A stretch of 64,000 nucleotides of DNA, taken from Polyangia bacterium (GTDB lineage: Bacteria; Myxococcota_A; Polyangia; Nannocystales; Nannocystaceae). Within the stretch, counting starts at the first letter, position 1; every line of letters begins with the position of its first letter. The stretch is taken from positions 186,001 to 250,000 of the forward strand of contig JAUIKS010000013.1 in assembly GCA_030430565.1 (NCBI GenBank), read 5' to 3'. This document shows positions 11,048 through 64,000 of the stretch, piece by piece. Under the pieces are notes generated by a model, which was not told the DNA's origin, did no database searches, and saw only the letters and a list, made by a program, of their open reading frames with translations. A program made the position numbers and the translations under genes.

Positions 11048-11090
11048 AAGAGAGGGATGGCTGTCAAGAGCCATTCCTCTCTTGTTTGGT
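11048..11090 (+). terminator. Strong rho-independent terminator
   Basis: A 15-bp stem with one G-T pair (11048-11062 with 11069-11083) has a 6-nt loop and is followed by GTTTGGTTGT. The stem is AT-richer than its surroundings. It closes the transcript of the small gene ending at 11017 and insulates the regulator gene at 11239. Confidence 0.8.
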
Positions 11091-11238
11091 TGTGCTGCAT
11101 CACAAGTTGTTCATTGGGTCAGGTTCAGGCGGAGAAATGGCTTTGGAACAATCTGTATTCTGGGACACGTTCAAGTCTTGCGGGAAAGGCGCCAGCGATC
11201 GGCTTTCCGTTCCACCCGGTGGTTGGTAGCCTCAGCCC

Positions 11239-12615
<1,377 letters not shown>

Positions 12616-54374: not shown

Positions 54375-56435
54375 ATGCAGCGTGTAGCGTCGATCACTGG
54401 TCTAGCACTGTTGGCAGCAACCCTCGTCGCGTGCGGCGACAGCGGGGTCGGGTCGACGAACGACACGACCGGCGCGTCCGTCGCGACGCTCGGCACCACC
54501 GCGGGGACGGCGGGGACCGGCGCGACGACGGGCGGGATGACGGACCCGACGATGACCGGCGCCTCCGAGTCTGGCATGGGCACGAGCACGAGCGCGGGCC
54601 CCACGAGCTCGACGACGACCGACGACATGACCTCGGGCACGACGCAGGGGGTCAGCGACACCGACGATCCCCCGCCGGTGTGCGCGCCCGAGGACTGCGA
54701 GCTCGGGCAGTACTGCGACATGGACTCGGGCGAGTGCACGCCGGGCTGCGACGACGACGAGGACTGCCAGGGCGAGACGGTCTGTGACCTCGACGCCAAC
54801 GTCTGCACGGGCTGCGTCTCGGACGGCGACTGCGCGCTCGGGACCGTGTGCCTCGGCGGGACCTGCGAGCCGGGCTGCAACGACCAGCAGCCGTGCCAGG
54901 ACGGCTTCACCTGCTGCGCCGAGACCTGCGTCGACGCGCTCAACGATCCGCTGAACTGCGGCGCCTGCGACAACGCCTGCCCCGATCCGGGCAACACCGA
55001 CCCGACCTGCACGGACGGCATGTGCGGCTTTGACTGCGCGGACGGCTTTGACAACTGCGACGGCGATCCGGGCAACGGCTGCGAGAACCAAGGCTCGTGC
55101 CTGTGCTCGCCCGGCGAGACCCAGGACTGCTACACGGGCCTGCCGCAGACCGAGGGCGTGGGCGAGTGCCAGTCGGGCACGCAGACCTGCAACCAAGACG
55201 GGACCGGCTGGGGCCCGTGCGAGGGCGAGGTGCTGCCGCTCGCGGAGGACATCTGCGGCAACAACGCGGACGACAACTGCGACGGCACGGTCGACGAGGA
55301 TCCCGACAGCGACAACGACGGCTACACGGTCTGCGGCGGTGACTGCTGCGACGCGGTGGGCCCGAACTGTCAGAACCCTGACCTCGTGAACCCCGGCGCG
55401 TTTGAGGTCGACGGCAACGACGTCGACGACGACTGCGACGGGACCAAGGACAACCCGGTGCCGGTCTGCGACAACGGCATCGCCTCGAACACGCAGAGCG
55501 CCGACGACTACGCCCGCGCCATCGACCTGTGCCAGTTCACGACCGAGAACGCCATGGGCCAGGACAAGATCTGGGGCGTCATCTCGAGCGGCGGCGGCCT
55601 CCTGCAGCCCTCCGGCAACAACGGCGAGTCGAACAACGGACACTCCGTCCGCAACGGCTTCGGCGCCAACATCACCAACTCCAAGGGCCAGCGCCTCGCG
55701 GTGCTGTCCTCCGGGCACGCGGCCGACAACATCAACGACAACAACCCCAACTTCGCGCCCTTCGAGAGCGGCGTGAACACCGGGCCTGACCAGACCGCGC
55801 CGCCGGACTGGCTCGCGGCCAACGGCGGCAGCTTCCCGAACGCGCCGGGCTGCCCGATCTCGGGGAACACCAACGCCAACGACGGGCAGATGCTGCGGCT
55901 GCGCGTGCGCGTGCCGACCAACGCGAACTCGTTCACGGTCAAGTTCTTCTTCTTCTCGGCCGAGTACCCCGAGTACGTGTGCACGAGCTTCAACGACTTC
56001 TTCGTCACGCTGGTGGACTCCACCGACAACGAGAACCCCAACGACAAGAACATCGCGATCTACGCCGAGGGGAATAACCAGTGGCCGGTCGGCGTGAACC
56101 TGGTCTCGGCCGCGCCGAACCTGTTCGCGGTCTGCGACAACGGCAACATCGGCTGCGCCGGCGGTCCGAACGTGCCCTACAACGGCTGCAACCAGGGCGA
56201 GAACCTGCTCACGGGGACAGGCTTCGACATCACCGCTTCGGCTTGTAGCGGCAACAACGATGTCGGCGGCGGCACCGGCTGGCTGATCATGAGCGGCAAC
56301 GTGACGCCCGGCGAGACCATGGAGATCCGCTTCGCGATCTGGGACACGGGCGACTCGGTGTGGGACTCGCTGGTGCTGCTCGACCACTGGGAGTGGTCGG
56401 TGCAGGCCTCGGAGCCCGGTATTCAGCCCGGTTGA
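54375..56435 (+). CDS. Cys-rich surface lipoprotein with MopE-like and choice-of-anchor L features (copy 1)
   Basis: 686 aa. The leader ends in LAATLVAC (lipobox). A Thr/Ser/Gly-rich linker leads to a Cys-rich region (CAPEDCELGQYCDMDSGEC and more, about 95-225) and the metal-binding motif type (NNADDNCDGTVDEDPDSDND, CNNxAxxDDNCDG pattern). A C-terminal choice-of-anchor L-like domain (about 360-686) includes VKFFFFSAEYPEYVCTSFND and ends HWEWSVQASEPGIQPG. The whole structure suggests an adhesin or Cu/Ca-binding surface protein. There is no clear Shine-Dalgarno; GGATAAAAT ends ten bases before the ATG, hinting at a leaderless message. Tandem with copy 2. Confidence 0.85.
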   Translation: MQRVASITGLALLAATLVACGDSGVGSTNDTTGASVATLGTTAGTAGTGATTGGMTDPTMTGASESGMGTSTSAGPTSSTTTDDMTSGTTQGVSDTDDPPPVCAPEDCELGQYCDMDSGECTPGCDDDEDCQGETVCDLDANVCTGCVSDGDCALGTVCLGGTCEPGCNDQQPCQDGFTCCAETCVDALNDPLNCGACDNACPDPGNTDPTCTDGMCGFDCADGFDNCDGDPGNGCENQGSCLCSPGETQDCYTGLPQTEGVGECQSGTQTCNQDGTGWGPCEGEVLPLAEDICGNNADDNCDGTVDEDPDSDNDGYTVCGGDCCDAVGPNCQNPDLVNPGAFEVDGNDVDDDCDGTKDNPVPVCDNGIASNTQSADDYARAIDLCQFTTENAMGQDKIWGVISSGGGLLQPSGNNGESNNGHSVRNGFGANITNSKGQRLAVLSSGHAADNINDNNPNFAPFESGVNTGPDQTAPPDWLAANGGSFPNAPGCPISGNTNANDGQMLRLRVRVPTNANSFTVKFFFFSAEYPEYVCTSFNDFFVTLVDSTDNENPNDKNIAIYAEGNNQWPVGVNLVSAAPNLFAVCDNGNIGCAGGPNVPYNGCNQGENLLTGTGFDITASACSGNNDVGGGTGWLIMSGNVTPGETMEIRFAIWDTGDSVWDSLVLLDHWEWSVQASEPGIQPG

Positions 56436-56563: not shown

Positions 56564-58618
56564 ATGACTCGTGTAGGTACAACGGCTGGTCTGTGTGTTT
56601 GTGTTCTCGCGGTCGCGTGCGGCGACAGCGGCGACCCGACGACGACGGACGCGCAGCCGACCCTCACGACGACGCCGACCACGCTGCAGCCGACCGCGAG
56701 CGCGTCTGGGACCGACGCGACCTCCGGCGCCATGACCGACCCGACGATGACGGGCGCGACCGACTCGGGCGTGGGCACCACCAACGGCCCCGGCGGCAGC
56801 TCGACCTCGCTCGATCCCACGACCGGCGCGCCGACCGAGACTGACTCTGACACCACCGATCCGTCGACCTGCGCGCCGGAGGACTGTGAGGTCGGCGAGT
56901 TCTGCAACATGGAGTCGGGCGCGTGTGAGCCGGGCTGCGACGCGGAGGAGGACTGTCAGGGCGAGACCGTCTGCGACCTCGACGCCAACGTCTGCACGGG
57001 CTGCGTCTCGGACGGCGACTGCTCGCTCGGGACCGTGTGTGACGCCGGCGCGTGCGTGCCGGGCTGCAACGATCAGCAGCCGTGTCAGGACGGGCTCTCG
57101 TGCTGCGCGGGGACCTGCGTCGACGCGCTCACCGATCCGCTGAACTGCGGCGGCTGCGACGACGCCTGCCCGGATCCGGGGAACACGATCCCGACCTGCG
57201 CGGACGGGATGTGCGGCTTCGACTGCGCGGACAACTTCGACAACTGCGACGGCGACCCGGGCAACGGCTGCGAGAACCAGGGCGCGTGCCTGTGTACGCC
57301 CGGGGAGACCCAGGACTGCTACACGGGCCTGCCGCAGACCCAGGGCGTGGGCGAGTGCAAGGCGGGCACGCAGACCTGCAACCAAGACGGGACCGGCTGG
57401 GGCGCGTGCGAGGGCGAGGTGCTGCCGCTCGCGGAGGACATCTGCAACAACAACGCGGACGACAATTGCGACGGCGCGGTCGACGAGGACCCCGACGGAG
57501 ACAACGACGGCTACACGGTCTGCGGCGGCGATTGCTGCGACGCGGTGGGCCCGAACTGTCAAAACCCCGACCTGGTGAACCCGGGCGCGTTCGAGGTCGA
57601 CGGCAACGACGTCGACGACGACTGCGACGGGACCAAGGACAACCCGCTGCCGCTGTGTGATCAGGGCATCGCGTCGAACACCGGCAACCCGCTGGACTAC
57701 GCGAAGGCCATCGACCTGTGTCAGTTCACGACCGAGAACGCCCAGGGCCAGGACAAGATCTGGGGCGTCATCTCGGGCGGGCTGCACCTCGCGAGCGGGG
57801 CCGGGGCGCCCAACGCGAATTCACGCTCGGTGCGGCCGGGCTTCGGCAGCAACATCTCGCCCTCGCTGGGGCAGCGGATCGCGGTCATGTCGACGGGGCA
57901 CGCGGCCGACAGCAACGACAGCAACCCGAGCTTCGCGCAGTACCAGGACGGGCAGACGATGGGCACGACCTCGACCTTCCCGGCCGACTGGTACTCGCTC
58001 AACGGCAACCAGCTGCCCAACGCGCCAGGTTGCCCGAACGTCGCGGGCAACCAGGCCAACGACCCGGTGCTGCTGAAGCTGCGGATCCGCGTGCCGACCA
58101 ACGCGAACTCGTTCTCGGCCAAGATGTTCTTCTTCTCGGCCGAGTACCCGGAGTACGTCTGCACGGCCTTCAACGATTTCTTCGTGACGCTGGTCGACTC
58201 CAGCGACAACGAGAACCCGAGCGACAAGAACATCGCGATCTACACGCAGGGCAACAACAACTACCCGGTCGGCGTGAACATCCTGAAGGCCGCCAACGGC
58301 CTGTTCACGCAGTGCTCGAACGGTCAGATTACGCAGTGCGGGGTGCCGGCGAATTACAACGGCTGTCAGGGCACCTCGCTGCTCAACGGCACCGGCTTCG
58401 ACATCACGGGCTCGACGCTGTTCTCGTGCAGCTACAGCGGCCGCCACGGGGGCGGGACCGGCTGGCTGACGATGAGCGGCAACGTCACGCCGGGCGAGAC
58501 GATGGAGGTTCGCTTCGCGATCTGGGACTCGTCGGACGGCCTGTTCGACTCGACGGTGCTGCTCGATCACTGGGAGTGGTCGGTGCAGGCCTCGGAGCCA
58601 GGCATCGAGCCGGGCTGA
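56564..58618 (+). CDS. Cys-rich surface lipoprotein, tandem paralogue (copy 2)
   Basis: 684 aa and collinear with copy 1 across its whole length. The middle segments, such as the metal-motif block (EDICNNNADDNCDGAVDED) and NPDLVNPGAFEVDGNDVDDD, are almost identical, while the N-terminal linker and parts of the C-terminal domain differ. Leader ends in LAVAC. TAGCAT lies nine to fifteen bases before the ATG and no Shine-Dalgarno is visible, as for copy 1. Tandem duplication with later divergence explains the pair; gene conversion could have kept the middle alike. Confidence 0.85.
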   Translation: MTRVGTTAGLCVCVLAVACGDSGDPTTTDAQPTLTTTPTTLQPTASASGTDATSGAMTDPTMTGATDSGVGTTNGPGGSSTSLDPTTGAPTETDSDTTDPSTCAPEDCEVGEFCNMESGACEPGCDAEEDCQGETVCDLDANVCTGCVSDGDCSLGTVCDAGACVPGCNDQQPCQDGLSCCAGTCVDALTDPLNCGGCDDACPDPGNTIPTCADGMCGFDCADNFDNCDGDPGNGCENQGACLCTPGETQDCYTGLPQTQGVGECKAGTQTCNQDGTGWGACEGEVLPLAEDICNNNADDNCDGAVDEDPDGDNDGYTVCGGDCCDAVGPNCQNPDLVNPGAFEVDGNDVDDDCDGTKDNPLPLCDQGIASNTGNPLDYAKAIDLCQFTTENAQGQDKIWGVISGGLHLASGAGAPNANSRSVRPGFGSNISPSLGQRIAVMSTGHAADSNDSNPSFAQYQDGQTMGTTSTFPADWYSLNGNQLPNAPGCPNVAGNQANDPVLLKLRIRVPTNANSFSAKMFFFSAEYPEYVCTAFNDFFVTLVDSSDNENPSDKNIAIYTQGNNNYPVGVNILKAANGLFTQCSNGQITQCGVPANYNGCQGTSLLNGTGFDITGSTLFSCSYSGRHGGGTGWLTMSGNVTPGETMEVRFAIWDSSDGLFDSTVLLDHWEWSVQASEPGIEPG

Positions 58619-58630
58619 GCGCGGGCGCGC

Positions 58631-59641
58631 TCAGGCGCTCGTGGGGCGCCGGCGCGCGGCGCCGCGGTATTGCCGTGGAGACAGGCCGGCGTGGCGCCGG
58701 AAGGCGCGCGAGAAGCTGGCGTGATCGGTGAAGCCGCTGGCGCGGGCGACCTCGGCGATCGGGTCGCGGGTCGTCCGCAGCAGGCGGGCGGCTCGGCACA
58801 TCCGCAGGCTGCGGAGGTAGGCGCCGGGGGTCATGCCGACGACGCGCGAGAACTGGCGCAGGAAGTGGTACTTCGACAGCCCGGCGATGGTCGCGAGCTC
58901 GTCGAGCGAGGTGCCGCGCGCGCTCGAGCGCGGATCGAGCTCGTGCTCGCGGAGGTACTCGACGACGCGGGCGATCGGGCGCTGCGCGACGCGGTTGGTC
59001 GAGCGCAGCCGCGGGTCGTGGAGGTTGGAGAAGCGGGTGAGCGCGTGGGCGATGACGCTCGTGATCGCGGCGTCGCGCTCGAGCGCGTGATCGGTGCCGG
59101 CGCCCGCGGCCTCGGGCTCGTCGCCGTCGCGTGCCTGCGCGCTGAGGAGCGCGCGGACGCGGCGGGTCAGCGCGGGCGCGCAGGCGACCTTGATGGAGGT
59201 GAACTCGGGGTCGCGGTCTTCGCCGGTGCGCTCTTTGGCGATCGCGCGCACCAGGTCACGCTCGACGTAGAGGCTGATGTACTCGATGTCTTCGCTGCCG
59301 CGGGTGTTGCCGGTGTGGACCTGGTGGGGGTTGATCAGGACCAGCTCGCCGGCGTCGAATTCGTAGAGCTTGCCGGCGACGTGGCAGGCCTCGTGCCCGC
59401 TGAGCTGCACGCAGATCACGTACTCGTCGTGGAAGTGCGGGACCAGCGGGACCGCGCTCTGTGCACCGCGGGCGTGGAACAGGCGAAAGCCGCGGGGGCC
59501 GCTGGGCGGCGAACGACGCTCGCTCCTCGGACGCCCGTCGACGCGCTCGCTGGTGGTGGAGCTGCGCGAGGGAGGTCGTGTGGAGTCGACGCGGACGGGC
59601 CCGTGGGCGGCCGTCCGTGAGCGTTCACCGGTGGCCACCAC
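58631..59641 (-). CDS. AraC-family transcription regulator
   Basis: 336 aa with GTG start. The N-terminal AraC-binding cupin part (about 60-180; PHFHDEYVICVQLSGHEACH, FDAGELVLINPHQVHTG) senses a small ligand. The C-terminal double HTH (about 235-325) has LDELATIAGLSKYHFLRQFS and IAEVARASGFTDHASFSRAFRRHAGLSPRQYR, the family signature. The first 55 residues are Arg/Ser-rich and may not be translated. It diverges from the aminotransferase fusion gene across 88 bp, making that gene the natural target. Confidence 0.9.
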   Translation of the reverse strand: MVATGERSRTAAHGPVRVDSTRPPSRSSTTSERVDGRPRSERRSPPSGPRGFRLFHARGAQSAVPLVPHFHDEYVICVQLSGHEACHVAGKLYEFDAGELVLINPHQVHTGNTRGSEDIEYISLYVERDLVRAIAKERTGEDRDPEFTSIKVACAPALTRRVRALLSAQARDGDEPEAAGAGTDHALERDAAITSVIAHALTRFSNLHDPRLRSTNRVAQRPIARVVEYLREHELDPRSSARGTSLDELATIAGLSKYHFLRQFSRVVGMTPGAYLRSLRMCRAARLLRTTRDPIAEVARASGFTDHASFSRAFRRHAGLSPRQYRGAARRRPTSA

Positions 59642-59729
59642 ATCAGCCTAGCGGGGCGGACCCCCACGGTCGAGGGGGCGCTTGTGAGTCGAGACATGCG
59701 CGCGCGCTCGGGACTCCGGTGGGCGGCGC

Positions 59730-62700
59730 GTGTATGCTCCGCGCGTGTCTGGCCCAGCGCCACTACCACAGCGCGAGACCCGAGCGCAGGCGCTCGCCGA
59801 GCTCGAGGCACGGCAGCGCGCTGAGCTGCCCGCCCCAGGCGGGGGCCGCCTGCTGGAGCGTGAGACCTCGCGTGTGCGTGTGCCGGAGGGCGGGATCCTG
59901 CCGGCCTCCGAGGCGTGGCTCGAGCGGCTCTACGCCGGCGAACTCGTCCCGCGGGAGAAGAAGCCGCTGGTCGTCGACACCCGTCGCTCCTGGGGTCCGC
60001 TGATGGTCTCGGTGGACGAGCGCCCGCTGGTCGTGCTCGACGCGTGCTCACAGATCGCGACGTTGACGCACGGCTTCGCCCACCCCGGGATGCTCGCGGC
60101 CGTCGACGGCGGTCGCTTCGACGGCTGCCTGTGGAGCAACCCCGACACCCGCGTTCGCAGGGTCAAGGAGCTCGAGGACTTCGTCGACGCGCTCAAGCGG
60201 CGCGCGCCGCCCGGGCTCGAGCACGTCAGCGTGGTCGGGGCAGGGGGCGCCGAGGCCAATGAGAAGGCGCTGCGGATCGCCCGGCTGCACGCGCCGCCCG
60301 CGAGCGAAGGCCCGCGCACGCGCGTGCTCGCGTTTCGCGGGGCGTTCCACGGGCGGACCTGGGTCTCGCTCGGGTCGACCTGGAACCCCAAAAAACGCGG
60401 CCCCTTCGAACTCGAGGGCTACGAGGCCGTGTTCTGTGAGCCGACCCTCGAGGCCGCGACCGCGGCGCTCAGCGGGCCGCAGGCGCACGAGCTGTACGCG
60501 ATCATCGTCGAGCCGATGATGTCAGAGGGCGGCGAGCGCTATCTCGCGCGCGAGTTCTTCGTCGGTCTGCTCACGCTCGCGCGGCGCCACGGGCTGCCGC
60601 TGATCGTCGATGAGGTCCAGACGGGCTTCGGCACCGGCGGGCCGTTTCTGTGGTGGCAGCGGCTCGGGCTCGGCGAGGATGAGGAGACGACCCCCGACCT
60701 GATCACGCTGGCGAAGAAGGCCAACGTCGGCGTGGTTCTGTCGCGCTGGCCCGACCCCGAGCGAGCGCACACACAGGCGCCGGTGGTCTCGGTGGTGCGT
60801 GGGCACATTCAGCTCGAGACCGCCGATGAGCCGGCTGAGGCGTTGACCGCCGCCGGCCTGGCCGCGCGCGTCGAGGCCCTGGCGGCGGCGTTCCCGAGCC
60901 AGGTCGAGAACGCGCGGGTCGCCGGGACGACCTTCGCCTTCGAGCTGCCGGACGAGGACGCGCGCGCGGCCTTCTTGGCGCAGCGGCTGCACCGCGGGCT
61001 GATGCTCTACGGCGGCGGCGCGCGGACGCTGCGGTTTCGCCTGAACGCGCGCTGGGACGCGCGCCTGCTCGACGACCTGTTCGAACGCATCGCGGGCGTC
61101 CTGCGCGACCTGGCCCAAGCGCCCGCCGCCGCGCCGCAGTGGCGCGCCGAGGGCTACGAGGAGGTCTGCCCCGAGGAGCCCGAGGCCGCCGCGCTTCGCT
61201 ATCAGCTGCGCCCGATCGAGGAGGGGGACTGGCGCCAGGTTATGGCGCTGGAGCGCGAGGCCTACGAGACCGAGCGCCAGGGCAGCGAGCAGTTTTTGCG
61301 GCGGATCCGCGACGGCGGCTTCGGCCTGGTCGCGGTCGAGCTGCCGCCCGAGCCGGCGCCAGCGACGGAGGGCGAGCCGGCGGAGGTGTCCGAGGGGGCA
61401 GGGGGGGCGGTGCTCGGCTTCTGCCTCGGCGGTCCGCTCGAGAACTACCGCGACGTCGCCGGCCCCGATCGGGATCCCGCGCTCAAGCGGCGGCCCGGCG
61501 AGGTGTTCTACTCGGCCGACGTGACGGTCGCTGAGCGGGCCCGCGGCTGCGGGCTCGGGCGCGAGCTCAAGCGCGCGCAGATCGAGTGGGCGCGCGCGCA
61601 GGGCTTCCGGATCGTCTCGGGGCGCAACCGCGTCGGCGACGCGATGGTGGCGCTCAACCGATCGTTCGGCGCGTTCCCGGTCGTGACCTTCGACGGCCTC
61701 TACAAAGACGGAGACGGCGGCCTGCTCGCGGCCGAGTACTATCACATCCCGCTCGACGTGCCCTTCCAGCTGCTGCCGCCGCTCGAGGAGGATGTCTCTC
61801 CAGCCAGCTCGGTGGTCGGCGCGCTCGTCTCGGACGAAGAGGTCGATCTCGCCAGCGGCCTGCAGCAGCCCTTCGGCGAGGCGCCCGCGTTCATGGCGAG
61901 CCGCGAGCTTATCGGGCCGCTGACCAGCCGAATCAACCTCAGCAACTACACGACGCCCGACGTGGTGCAGTACGCCGAGCACCTGCGCCTGATGCTCCCG
62001 CGGGGTACGCGGCACATGTACTTCACGACATCTCGCGACGAGGCCGTCGACAAGGGCCTGCGCTGCCTCCGGCTCTCGCGCCCCGCCGCCCAGATCGCGC
62101 TGAGCCTCGAGGGCGGCTACGTCGGCCACGTCACCGCGGCCGCGCGGGGGCTCTCGGATCCGCGCGGTTTCGGCTCGGAGTTCTCGCTGCTGCGCTGGCC
62201 GCGGCTCCCACACCCGGCCGCGTCGACCAGCGCCCGGGGCGTCGAGGCGACGGTCGCGGCGCTCGACGCGATCGTGCAGGAGCACGGCGCGGCGTCGATC
62301 CTCGGCCTCGTGGTCGAGCTGGTCGGCGAGCGCTCGGGGCTCCGTCTCGACGGCGACTGCTCCGCGCTGCTGGCGGCCGCGTGCCGTCGACACGACATCC
62401 CGCTCGTGCTCGTCGAGACCGCCAGCGGCGGCTACCGCAACGGGCTCGGGGCGTGGGCCGTCGACGCCATGCCGCCGGGCGTCGTCCCCGACATGGTGCT
62501 CTGGTACCCCGGGGGCCAGCTCGGGCACGTCTTCGTCGGCGACCGGTATTGGGTCGACGAGCCGCTCACGCTGATCTCGACCTGGGACGGCGACGAGGTC
62601 TCGGTGATCCGCGCGCACGAGCACCTCCGCGCGGCCGGCAAGCTCGAGACGCTCGCCGAGGCCAGTGAGTCCCTGGGCGCGCTGCTCGAGATGCTCGTGC

Positions 62701-62948
62701 CCGCGCACTTCGCCGGCACCGTGGTCGGCGGCCTCGGGCTCTACCGCACGCTGACCTTTGAGGACGCCGCCGACGCCGAGGCCGTGCGGGCCGCCTGCCG
62801 CAAGCGCGGCCTGGTCCTCGGGACCGGTCTCCCTGGTACGCTGGTGGTCGCGCCGCCGCTGTCGATCGACGGCGCGACGATTCAGGGGCTCCGACGGCGA
62901 CTCAACGGGGCCCTGGCGGCCGCGGCCGGCCGCGAGCGCGCGAGCTGA
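59730..62948 (+). CDS. Aminotransferase - GNAT acetyltransferase - pseudo-aminotransferase fusion
   Basis: 1072 aa. Domain 1 (about 45-460) is a class III PLP aminotransferase, most like lysine or omega-amino acid types: VDEVQTGFGTGGPF, PLP lysine in DLITLAKKANVG (K329 or K330). Domain 2 (about 488-690) is GNAT-like, with the acetyl-CoA loop RGCGLGRELK near 600. Domain 3 (about 715-1070) is again class III-like (YFTTSRDEAVDKGLR, ALSLEGGYVGHVTAAARG), but the lysine position reads DMVLWYPGGQLGH and the Asp loop reads VETASGGYRNG, so it is probably inactive. A GTG at 59745 after TATGCT is an alternative start. Likely makes an N-acetylated amine or amino acid; the substrate is unknown. Confidence 0.8.
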   Translation: MYAPRVSGPAPLPQRETRAQALAELEARQRAELPAPGGGRLLERETSRVRVPEGGILPASEAWLERLYAGELVPREKKPLVVDTRRSWGPLMVSVDERPLVVLDACSQIATLTHGFAHPGMLAAVDGGRFDGCLWSNPDTRVRRVKELEDFVDALKRRAPPGLEHVSVVGAGGAEANEKALRIARLHAPPASEGPRTRVLAFRGAFHGRTWVSLGSTWNPKKRGPFELEGYEAVFCEPTLEAATAALSGPQAHELYAIIVEPMMSEGGERYLAREFFVGLLTLARRHGLPLIVDEVQTGFGTGGPFLWWQRLGLGEDEETTPDLITLAKKANVGVVLSRWPDPERAHTQAPVVSVVRGHIQLETADEPAEALTAAGLAARVEALAAAFPSQVENARVAGTTFAFELPDEDARAAFLAQRLHRGLMLYGGGARTLRFRLNARWDARLLDDLFERIAGVLRDLAQAPAAAPQWRAEGYEEVCPEEPEAAALRYQLRPIEEGDWRQVMALEREAYETERQGSEQFLRRIRDGGFGLVAVELPPEPAPATEGEPAEVSEGAGGAVLGFCLGGPLENYRDVAGPDRDPALKRRPGEVFYSADVTVAERARGCGLGRELKRAQIEWARAQGFRIVSGRNRVGDAMVALNRSFGAFPVVTFDGLYKDGDGGLLAAEYYHIPLDVPFQLLPPLEEDVSPASSVVGALVSDEEVDLASGLQQPFGEAPAFMASRELIGPLTSRINLSNYTTPDVVQYAEHLRLMLPRGTRHMYFTTSRDEAVDKGLRCLRLSRPAAQIALSLEGGYVGHVTAAARGLSDPRGFGSEFSLLRWPRLPHPAASTSARGVEATVAALDAIVQEHGAASILGLVVELVGERSGLRLDGDCSALLAAACRRHDIPLVLVETASGGYRNGLGAWAVDAMPPGVVPDMVLWYPGGQLGHVFVGDRYWVDEPLTLISTWDGDEVSVIRAHEHLRAAGKLETLAEASESLGALLEMLVPAHFAGTVVGGLGLYRTLTFEDAADAEAVRAACRKRGLVLGTGLPGTLVVAPPLSIDGATIQGLRRRLNGALAAAAGRERAS

Positions 62949-62985: not shown

Positions 62986-64000
62986 ATGGGCGAGAGTCAC
63001 GACGGGGCCGACACGACGCTGTTCGAGCGCCAGCGCGAGCACCTGTTCTTCACCTGGTCGGCGCAGCGCGACGTCCAGCCCCTGACGATCGTCGAGGCCG
63101 CCGGCCCGCGGTTTCGCACCCTCGAGGACGGGTGGCTGTGGGACCTCGAGAGCCAGGTCTACAACGTCAACGTCGGGCACCGGCACGCGCACCTCCAGGC
63201 CCGGATGACCGCACAGATCCAGGAGCTGCCGGCGGCGGCGCCCAACGCCGCGCTGCCGATCCGCGCCGAGCTCGGCGAGCTGCTGCGACGGCACACGGGG
63301 CTGCACCGGGCGTTCCTGACGACCGGCGGCTCCGAGGCGACCGAGAACGCGATCAAGATCGCGCGCCTGGTGACCGGGCGCAGCAAGATCGTGACGCGGC
63401 GCAGCTCCTACCACGGCGCGACCTTGGCGGTGCTCGGTGTCGCCGGCGACGCGCGCAAGGAGCCCTACGCGCGCCACCTCGCGCCGGCGTTTCACATCGA
63501 CGACCCATACCCGTGGACGCCCGAGACGCCGTCGAGCTGGGTCCGCAGCCTCGAGGCGCTGATCGAGCGCGAGGGCCCCGAGACCATCGCGGCCGTGCTG
63601 CTCGAGGGCTTCACGGGGACCAACGGCATGCAGCTCCCGCCGCAAGACTTCTGGCCGCGCGCGCGCGCGCTGTGTGACGCCCACGGGATCCTGCTGATCG
63701 ACGACGAGATCTTCAGCGGCTTCGGGCGCACCGGTCGCTGGTTCGCGCACGAGCATTTTCTCGGGGGCCACACGCCCGACATGATGATCGTCGGCAAGGG
63801 CCTGACCTCCGGCTACGCGCCGCTGGCCGGCGTCGTCGTCGCCGAGCACGTCGCCGCGCACTTCGACACCAACAAGCTGTGGTGCGGGCTCACGACCTAC
63901 GCGCACCCGGTCTCGTGCGCGGCCGCGGTCGGCTCGATCGAGGTCTTGGAGCGCGAGCAGCTCATCGCGAACGCGCGCGACCGCGGCGAGACGCTGCGCG
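62986..64000 (+). CDS. Class III aminotransferase, 3' truncated by the window
   Basis: 338 codons are visible from the ATG at 62986, 37 bases after the fusion gene, so probably the same operon. PLP-fold motifs: LTTGGSEATENAIKIARL, YHGATLAVLGVAGD, IDDEIFSGFGRTGRWFAHEH and the lysine in MIVGKGLTSGYAPLAG. Unlike the third domain of the neighbour, the Asp and Lys are intact. It is similar to omega-amino acid:pyruvate and GABA-type aminotransferases; substrate unknown. The C-terminal small domain lies outside the window. Confidence 0.88.
   Translation, partial: MGESHDGADTTLFERQREHLFFTWSAQRDVQPLTIVEAAGPRFRTLEDGWLWDLESQVYNVNVGHRHAHLQARMTAQIQELPAAAPNAALPIRAELGELLRRHTGLHRAFLTTGGSEATENAIKIARLVTGRSKIVTRRSSYHGATLAVLGVAGDARKEPYARHLAPAFHIDDPYPWTPETPSSWVRSLEALIEREGPETIAAVLLEGFTGTNGMQLPPQDFWPRARALCDAHGILLIDDEIFSGFGRTGRWFAHEHFLGGHTPDMMIVGKGLTSGYAPLAGVVVAEHVAAHFDTNKLWCGLTTYAHPVSCAAAVGSIEVLEREQLIANARDRGETLR

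Follow-up and report, generated by a model that had tools for sequence, protein, structure and literature searches.

A lysine-less second copy probably completes the active site of a class III aminotransferase fused to an acetyltransferase in Nannocystaceae

We analyzed a 64,000-nucleotide stretch of the genome of a Polyangia bacterium (Nannocystaceae; GenBank assembly GCA_030430565.1, contig JAUIKS010000013.1, positions 186,001 to 250,000), hereafter the window, in which a single gene encodes two class III aminotransferase domains, AT1 and AT2, with a GNAT acetyltransferase domain between them (Table 1). The protein is probably a fused pseudo-heterodimer with one composite active site; a role in an N-acyl pathway is proposed with lower confidence. 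AT1 would carry pyridoxal 5'-phosphate (PLP) on Lys329. AT2, without an active site of its own, would stand in for the second subunit of the usual homodimer and donate Ser950 and Thr951 to the PLP phosphate in AT1, leaving one transaminase site per chain instead of two. The order AT1-GNAT-pseudo-AT2 was confirmed as real and not a chance arrangement. In a Pfam scan, Aminotran_3 (PF00202) was detected in two stretches in all, including residues 74-456 (7.4e-52), Acetyltransf_1 (PF00583) covered residues 558-629 (22.9 bits, gathering score 20.7), and AT2 had no row of its own.

L-lysine 6-transaminase (LAT; Rv3290c; PDB 2cin, 2cjd; TIGR03251) is the nearest solved relative, and equivalent positions were set via HMMER alignments to it. 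As described in the sections of PMC9780415 available to us, LAT is a homodimer of one domain in which each site is built from both subunits. Thr330 is given by the partner subunit to the PLP phosphate, Asn328 likewise comes from the other subunit, and Arg170, Glu243 and Arg422 form the substrate site. We scored twelve residues that act within their own subunit according to the same sections (G128, A129, F167, H168, R170, E238, E243, D271, V273, Q274, K300 and R422). Counts were taken from a 44-row family alignment from which L092, a degenerate relative in genome G211, was set apart, leaving 43 rows. L082, whose gene is cut off by the start of its contig, was left out of this alignment, as were L084 and L085, which are the same places as L015 and L018; 11 of the 50 fusion-bearing genomes lie outside it, and the 39-row sets also omit four near-identical Nannocystis rows.

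A profile of AT1 found LAT as its best PDB match (2jjf/2cin, 4.1e-52). All 12 own-subunit PLP and substrate residues, as defined by the LAT source, are kept in AT1 of the window; across the family, ten of the 12 positions are conserved in 43/43 sequences, F167 in 42 and A129 in 40. The class III hallmarks (Schiff-base Lys, pyridine Asp, F-H-G-R, Glu switch and C-terminal Arg) are likewise present in every row, with F in 42/43. A sequence-only reading of the window had noted a lysine and an Asp loop in this domain, and both are there (Lys329, Asp294). By comparison with LAT, Arg209 would hold the substrate carboxylate and a Glu266/Arg435 switch would serve 2-oxoglutarate. The phosphate-binding Thr of a homodimer is missing from this otherwise complete set: one HMMER alignment to LAT places an 8-residue deletion at the Thr330 point, the others Ala, Leu, Met, Val, Ile or a gap, and none of them a Thr.

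AT2 shows the opposite pattern. Its single sequence already matched class III aminotransferases in the PDB (3i5t, 2.6e-6). A 39-row profile gave a best PDB match of 5.2e-22 and matched LAT along nearly the whole LAT length (9.8e-21), and profile-profile comparison aligned AT1 with AT2 over 347 columns (99.4% probability). AT2 was also modelled by itself; the model (pLDDT 68.5, pTM 0.71) aligned to class III structures with Z values of 22.6-24.1 and 4.0-4.9 Å over 308-327 residues, an agreement that is partly built in, 10 of the 19 alignment rows being single-domain class III enzymes; its weak regions are model residues 101-121 and 229-259, the former active site included. Together, these results show that AT2 has the class III fold and is homologous to these enzymes over its full length. 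At the Schiff-base position it carries P, G, A, T or C and never Lys (0/43). Among the own-subunit residues taken from the LAT source only E238 is retained (43/43), the other eleven being found in 0 to 4 of 43 sequences. Neither a functional lysine nor an unrelated fold was found in this third domain, which the sequence-only reading had described as a class III fold without its lysine.

What AT2 does keep is the loop that LAT donates to its partner. In the 39-row set S950, T951, W952, D953 and G954 are invariant and D955 is present in 38 rows; in the 43-row count S, T, W and G954 are each found 43 times. The Thr330 equivalent is thus absent from AT1 in all 43 sequences and present in AT2 in all 43, and Ser329 is matched in both halves (43/43 each). 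As a control, single-domain LAT-family enzymes of the same phylum carry the Lys and the Thr in one chain in 26/26 cases, and in a second alignment of 12 single-domain class III enzymes the Lys is present in 12, with Thr in 11 and Ser in one. Since the losses are reciprocal and the controls have both residues in one chain, an AT1-AT2 pseudo-heterodimer is the most likely explanation. One half holds the cofactor residues and the other only those that cross the interface, which, as far as sequence can tell, is the pattern of a single-site pseudo-heterodimer of the serine palmitoyltransferase kind. Residues serving the second, dead site would have been lost from both halves. Consistent with this, the AT1 Lys and the AT2 Thr are both gone from the degenerate L092, a joint loss that fits both serving one site.

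Conservation gives the same picture. The mean column majority is 0.62 in AT1, 0.60 in GNAT and 0.57 in AT2; AT2 is nearly as conserved as AT1 and is therefore not drifting. Among the stretches compared, conservation peaks in the STW loop of AT2 (0.89). Judging by other class III enzymes, a second loop, AT2 735-747, would lie at the interface; it reaches 0.61 versus 0.39 in its AT1 counterpart. AT2, though dead, has apparently been retained for the one residue that AT1 has lost and that AT2 can supply. The earlier suggestion that a fused inactive partner replaces one protomer is well supported by these data: in the window, 11 of the 12 own-subunit residues, the lysine among them, are gone from AT2, which keeps the Ser-Thr-Trp-Asp-Gly loop.

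The alternative offered with it, a substrate-sensing unit, found no support. In such an arrangement AT1 would form homodimers between chains and AT2 would be a regulatory domain that binds substrate or product. Conserved AT2 residues outside the STW loop (E896 at the old Asp site, R903, H762, D774, K775 and R778) could be read in this way, and the former pocket may bind something. However, pairing AT1 with AT1, which lacks the partner Thr, would leave the phosphate sites incomplete, and a sensor has no reason to retain a loop serving a neighbouring active site, so that we regard this arrangement as improbable. Far less probable still is that transaminase function has been lost altogether, leaving an acetyltransferase with two decayed aminotransferase scaffolds. 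L092, where the GNAT motif outlasts both catalytic residues, resembles such a protein, but the catalytic residues of AT1 are almost invariant in the remaining 43 rows of the alignment, among them the window protein.

Several observations weigh against the pseudo-heterodimer. The Asn328 equivalent, a third partner-donated residue in the LAT description available to us, is found in neither half (0/43 in AT1, 0/43 in AT2). A full-length AlphaFold2 model from 9 alignment rows was too poor for use (pLDDT 51.5, pTM 0.33; its Foldseek matches reached a TM of only 0.12-0.15), so we only infer the AT1-AT2 geometry and interface; physical pairing of the two domains, be it inside a single chain or by a swap between two, is likewise a prediction, as are PLP binding and activity. 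A scan of viral contigs for further alignment rows gave no relative. In a 68-row tree AT2 lies on a long branch that is not firmly placed, and an origin of AT2 by duplication of AT1, which was considered, does not follow from it.

The same tree recovers AT1 and AT2 as two clades, each with full support (100/100), whose internal groupings largely coincide; a single ancient fusion would produce such a pattern. AT1 joins the LAT family (88/91). The architecture is ancient. A whole-protein query at 1e-40 or better matched 50 of 377 Myxococcota genomes. In the family of the window the fusion is present in 9 of 12 genomes, and, the window genome aside, 8 of 11 members share the full architecture (54-60% identity). 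A wider genome collection contained 8 full-length loci, in Nannocystis species and two Polyangia assemblies, with search patterns derived from the window protein that would miss distant relatives; plasmid records gave no match at E 1e-30. This distribution also bears on the trivial explanation that separate genes were joined by a frameshift or assembly error. The sequence is GC-rich with many spurious long frames, but the single frame is free of stops in the window genome, most matching genomes show the same order without a stop, and named Nannocystis isolates carry the fusion too, by which an artefact is already refuted and has practically no probability left.

Many relatives from other families are longer, with open frames of about 1530-1740 aa and an N-terminal aldehyde dehydrogenase (Pfam in L066, L096 and L100). 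The best equivalog for this domain is AstD, succinylglutamate-semialdehyde dehydrogenase, at 357.7 bits and below the cut-off of 579.3. Over 41 loci the AstD-type dehydrogenase is in the same open reading frame in 19 and a separate upstream gene in L083, L093 and L094; the window protein has no such domain. Two other observations on the relatives were made. The L092 gene (6670-10995, G211), with catalytic residues lost in both halves, is accompanied by an intact GNAT motif and by second aminotransferase and CoA-transferase genes, and possibly has a changed function. In L086, L087 and L088, all of the window's family, the fusion has Ser/Thr protein kinase genes in its vicinity, Pfam having been checked for the two in L087.

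Table 1. Position of the fusion gene, its domains, key residues and flanking genes in the window.
Feature	Position	Strand	Evidence or remark
Divergent AraC-family regulator	58631..59641	-	PF12833 6.4e-26, PF02311 1.5e-17
Whole gene, AT1-GNAT-pseudoAT2 fusion	59730..62948	+	1072 aa, GTG start, single open frame
AT1, residues 30-478, catalytic class III aminotransferase domain, LAT/GABA-AT-like	59817..61163	+	PF00202; PDB profile match
AT1 Asp294-Glu-Val-Gln297 (LAT Asp271-Gln274), pyridine-ring contacts	60609..60620	+	43/43
AT1 Lys329 codon (LAT Lys300), Schiff-base lysine	60714..60716	+	43/43
AT1 residues 353-358, expected STW(G)G loop site (LAT Thr330)	60786..60803	+	Thr lost (0/43), S-x-x-R-G present; S354, R357 conserved
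GNAT, residues 485-690, acetyl-CoA motif R605-x-x-G608-x-G610	61182..61799	+	PF00583, family alignment
AT2, residues 700-1068, class III pseudo-aminotransferase	61827..62933	+	Profile, profile-profile and model alignments
AT2 Glu896 at LAT Asp271 position	62415..62417	+	Glu 43/43
AT2 Pro927 at LAT Lys300 position	62508..62510	+	P/G/A/T/C, no Lys in 43/43
AT2 Ser950-Thr951-Trp952-Asp953-Gly954-Asp955, predicted partner-donated loop (LAT Ser329/Thr330)	62577..62594	+	Aligned to LAT STWGG
Second class III aminotransferase, PRK06062 subfamily-like	62986..64000	+	Cut by window end, 417 aa in contig

The exact start of the gene is unproven, a second GTG lying at 59745, and a scan of 59500-59900 for promoters and terminators found none. 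The flanking AraC gene and second aminotransferase had been noted from the sequence before; the latter is complete in the contig and combines the Lys with the phosphate Thr. Two adjacent paralogous genes, 54375-56435 and 56564-58618 (+), immediately precede the AraC gene; they encode secreted Cys-rich probable lipoproteins of 686 and 684 aa with near-identical motif order, a tandem duplication. Beyond the window on the same contig, 4-8 kb downstream of the fusion, a glutamate-semialdehyde-type aldehyde dehydrogenase adjoins an acetylornithine/ornithine-type aminotransferase (L009:9409-10992 and 11061-12401, +).

Neighbouring genes were compared over the 41 loci, the counts being lower bounds because some contigs end early. 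The PRK06062-like aminotransferase adjoins the fusion in at least 28 loci and a C45 autoproteolytic acyltransferase/hydrolase in at least 24. CoA-transferase genes, of the PcaIJ/ScoAB kind in the relatives, lie beside it in at least 21 (subunit A) and 12 (subunit B), and an AraC gene in at least 11, all of the window's family. From this context we suggest that a basic amino acid is degraded in N-acyl-protected form. In the route that we propose, GNAT would N-acylate lysine or a close relative, preventing cyclisation of the product, and AT1 would then take off the terminal amine. The AstD-type dehydrogenase, fused in many relatives, would oxidise the semialdehyde, the C45 hydrolase would remove the acyl group, and the second aminotransferase with the CoA-transferase would finish the pathway. 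The sequence-only reading had proposed that an N-acetylated diamino compound is formed or degraded, possibly as an osmolyte or signal; the compound itself is plausible, and since the neighbourhood, with its dehydrogenase, hydrolase, aminotransferase and CoA-transferase in relatives, looks catabolic, an osmolyte or signal is not favoured.

The GNAT acetyl-CoA motif is R/Q-x-x-G-x-G/A, and the GNAT loop of the fusion, reported as intact in the sequence-only reading, does hold R605, G608 and G610. The best PDB match of this domain reached 0.0021 and thialysine acetyltransferase 0.0044, neither of which was used for function.

The case for lysine comes from the distribution of LAT. The whole fusion protein scores 132.9 bits against TIGR03251, below the curated cut-off of 520.8, and a true LAT, above that cut-off, occurs in exactly the 3 of the 12 family genomes without the fusion. 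The chance of this 9/3 split is 1 in 220 (P 0.005) assuming independent genomes and 1 in 21 at genus level. This mutual exclusion moderately supports a role of the fusion equivalent to that of LAT, for which it would stand in, and lysine therefore leads; a pathway with lysine as its substrate has, in our estimate, a somewhat less than even chance. The neighbours of LAT in the three LAT-bearing genomes gave no dehydrogenase, C45, CoA-transferase, AraC, GNAT or AT2 match and thus add nothing further on the pathway. The fullest version is more tentative: a half-of-sites class III transaminase linked to an acyltransferase, and in relatives to a dehydrogenase, that would carry out acylation, transamination and oxidation in N-acyl-protected lysine degradation on one polypeptide and would have replaced LAT in the window's family.

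Against this pathway stand a number of points. Phylum-wide, the fusion (50) and LAT (18) show zero overlap among 377 genomes, where 2.4 are expected, which is not significant (P = 0.07); the P of 0.005 within the family is weakened by relatedness, and the comparison as a whole by incomplete genomes, that of the window being 87.7% complete. Members of the window's family yielded no adjacent AstD-type dehydrogenase; at the window locus, the dehydrogenase that lies some 4.5 kb downstream is of the glutamate-semialdehyde type. The window genome has no C45 gene next to the fusion, only a distant one elsewhere, and its CoA-transferase genes are also located elsewhere. Finally, NCBIfam gave no convincing family for GNAT among the 39 members scanned (best 2.4e-4); with no function-specific family match, we assign neither acyl donor nor acyl acceptor.

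The same composite enzyme might also act on another substrate, such as beta-lysine, ornithine, putrescine, cadaverine or 5-aminovalerate, with GNAT acylating substrate or product. This possibility, which concerns the pathway only, we put just short of even. The AT1 residues suit any omega-amino acid:2-oxoglutarate aminotransferase, profile matches also take in gamma-aminobutyrate aminotransferase (GABA-AT) and acetylornithine aminotransferase, and a PcaIJ/ScoAB-kind CoA-transferase would suit 3-oxoadipate from beta-lysine. Within the window's family, however, LAT tracks the fusion inversely. The beta-lysine pathway in particular was rejected: lysine 2,3-aminomutase-type genes occur in 268 of 377 genomes (5 over the cut-off), far beyond the spread of the fusion and not tracking it, the fusion genome G216 has none at that threshold, and a literature search on this pathway found no matching gene set.

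The arginine succinyltransferase (AST) pathway, with AstC and AstD, N-acylates its substrate before omega-transamination and semialdehyde oxidation, using separate enzymes. The proposed route has a similar logic, and the dehydrogenase fused in relatives scores best as AstD type; unlike that pathway, the dehydrogenase falls below the AstD cut-off and no AstA, AstB or AstE was seen among the neighbouring genes scanned.

Pairs of a catalytic and a lysine-less partner are found in other PLP enzymes. Serine palmitoyltransferase belongs to another PLP family, the alpha-oxoamine synthases. Like the fusion, it has one partner without lysine, LCB1, and a single active site with LCB2 is given as a working hypothesis in the part of PMC3794620 available to us. 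LCB1 and LCB2 are separate subunits, and no GNAT is involved. In the glycine decarboxylase P-protein, which has a different reaction and PLP family, such a pair is already fused: one half of its long chain binds PLP and the other lacks the lysine. It is not known to carry a GNAT or aldehyde dehydrogenase fusion. LAT itself shares the catalytic residues of AT1 and the STW-type loop of AT2, which it matches over nearly its full length. As its source describes it, LAT is a one-domain homodimer, whereas the fusion has the Lys and the Thr on different domains of one chain with GNAT between. As a separate observation, in five pairs of neighbouring LAT-like aminotransferase genes (L120/L133, L124/L134, L126/L135, L129/L136 and L123/L137) one member has QTRNGD instead of an STWGG-type loop and keeps its lysine, possibly forming a separate heterodimer.

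The one-site pseudo-heterodimer is an already known solution; its class III transaminase version with an inserted GNAT is the new part, and no description of such a fusion was found in the open literature searched. The fusion would offer a natural test of how a homodimeric two-site enzyme becomes a one-site pseudo-heterodimer, residues being lost reciprocally according to the site they served. Its predictions can be tested in a single construct: Thr951 should be essential despite lying in a 'dead' domain, and AT1 alone should be impaired. If the pathway reading is true, the fusion would represent an additional, multifunctional route by which myxobacteria break down basic amino acids.

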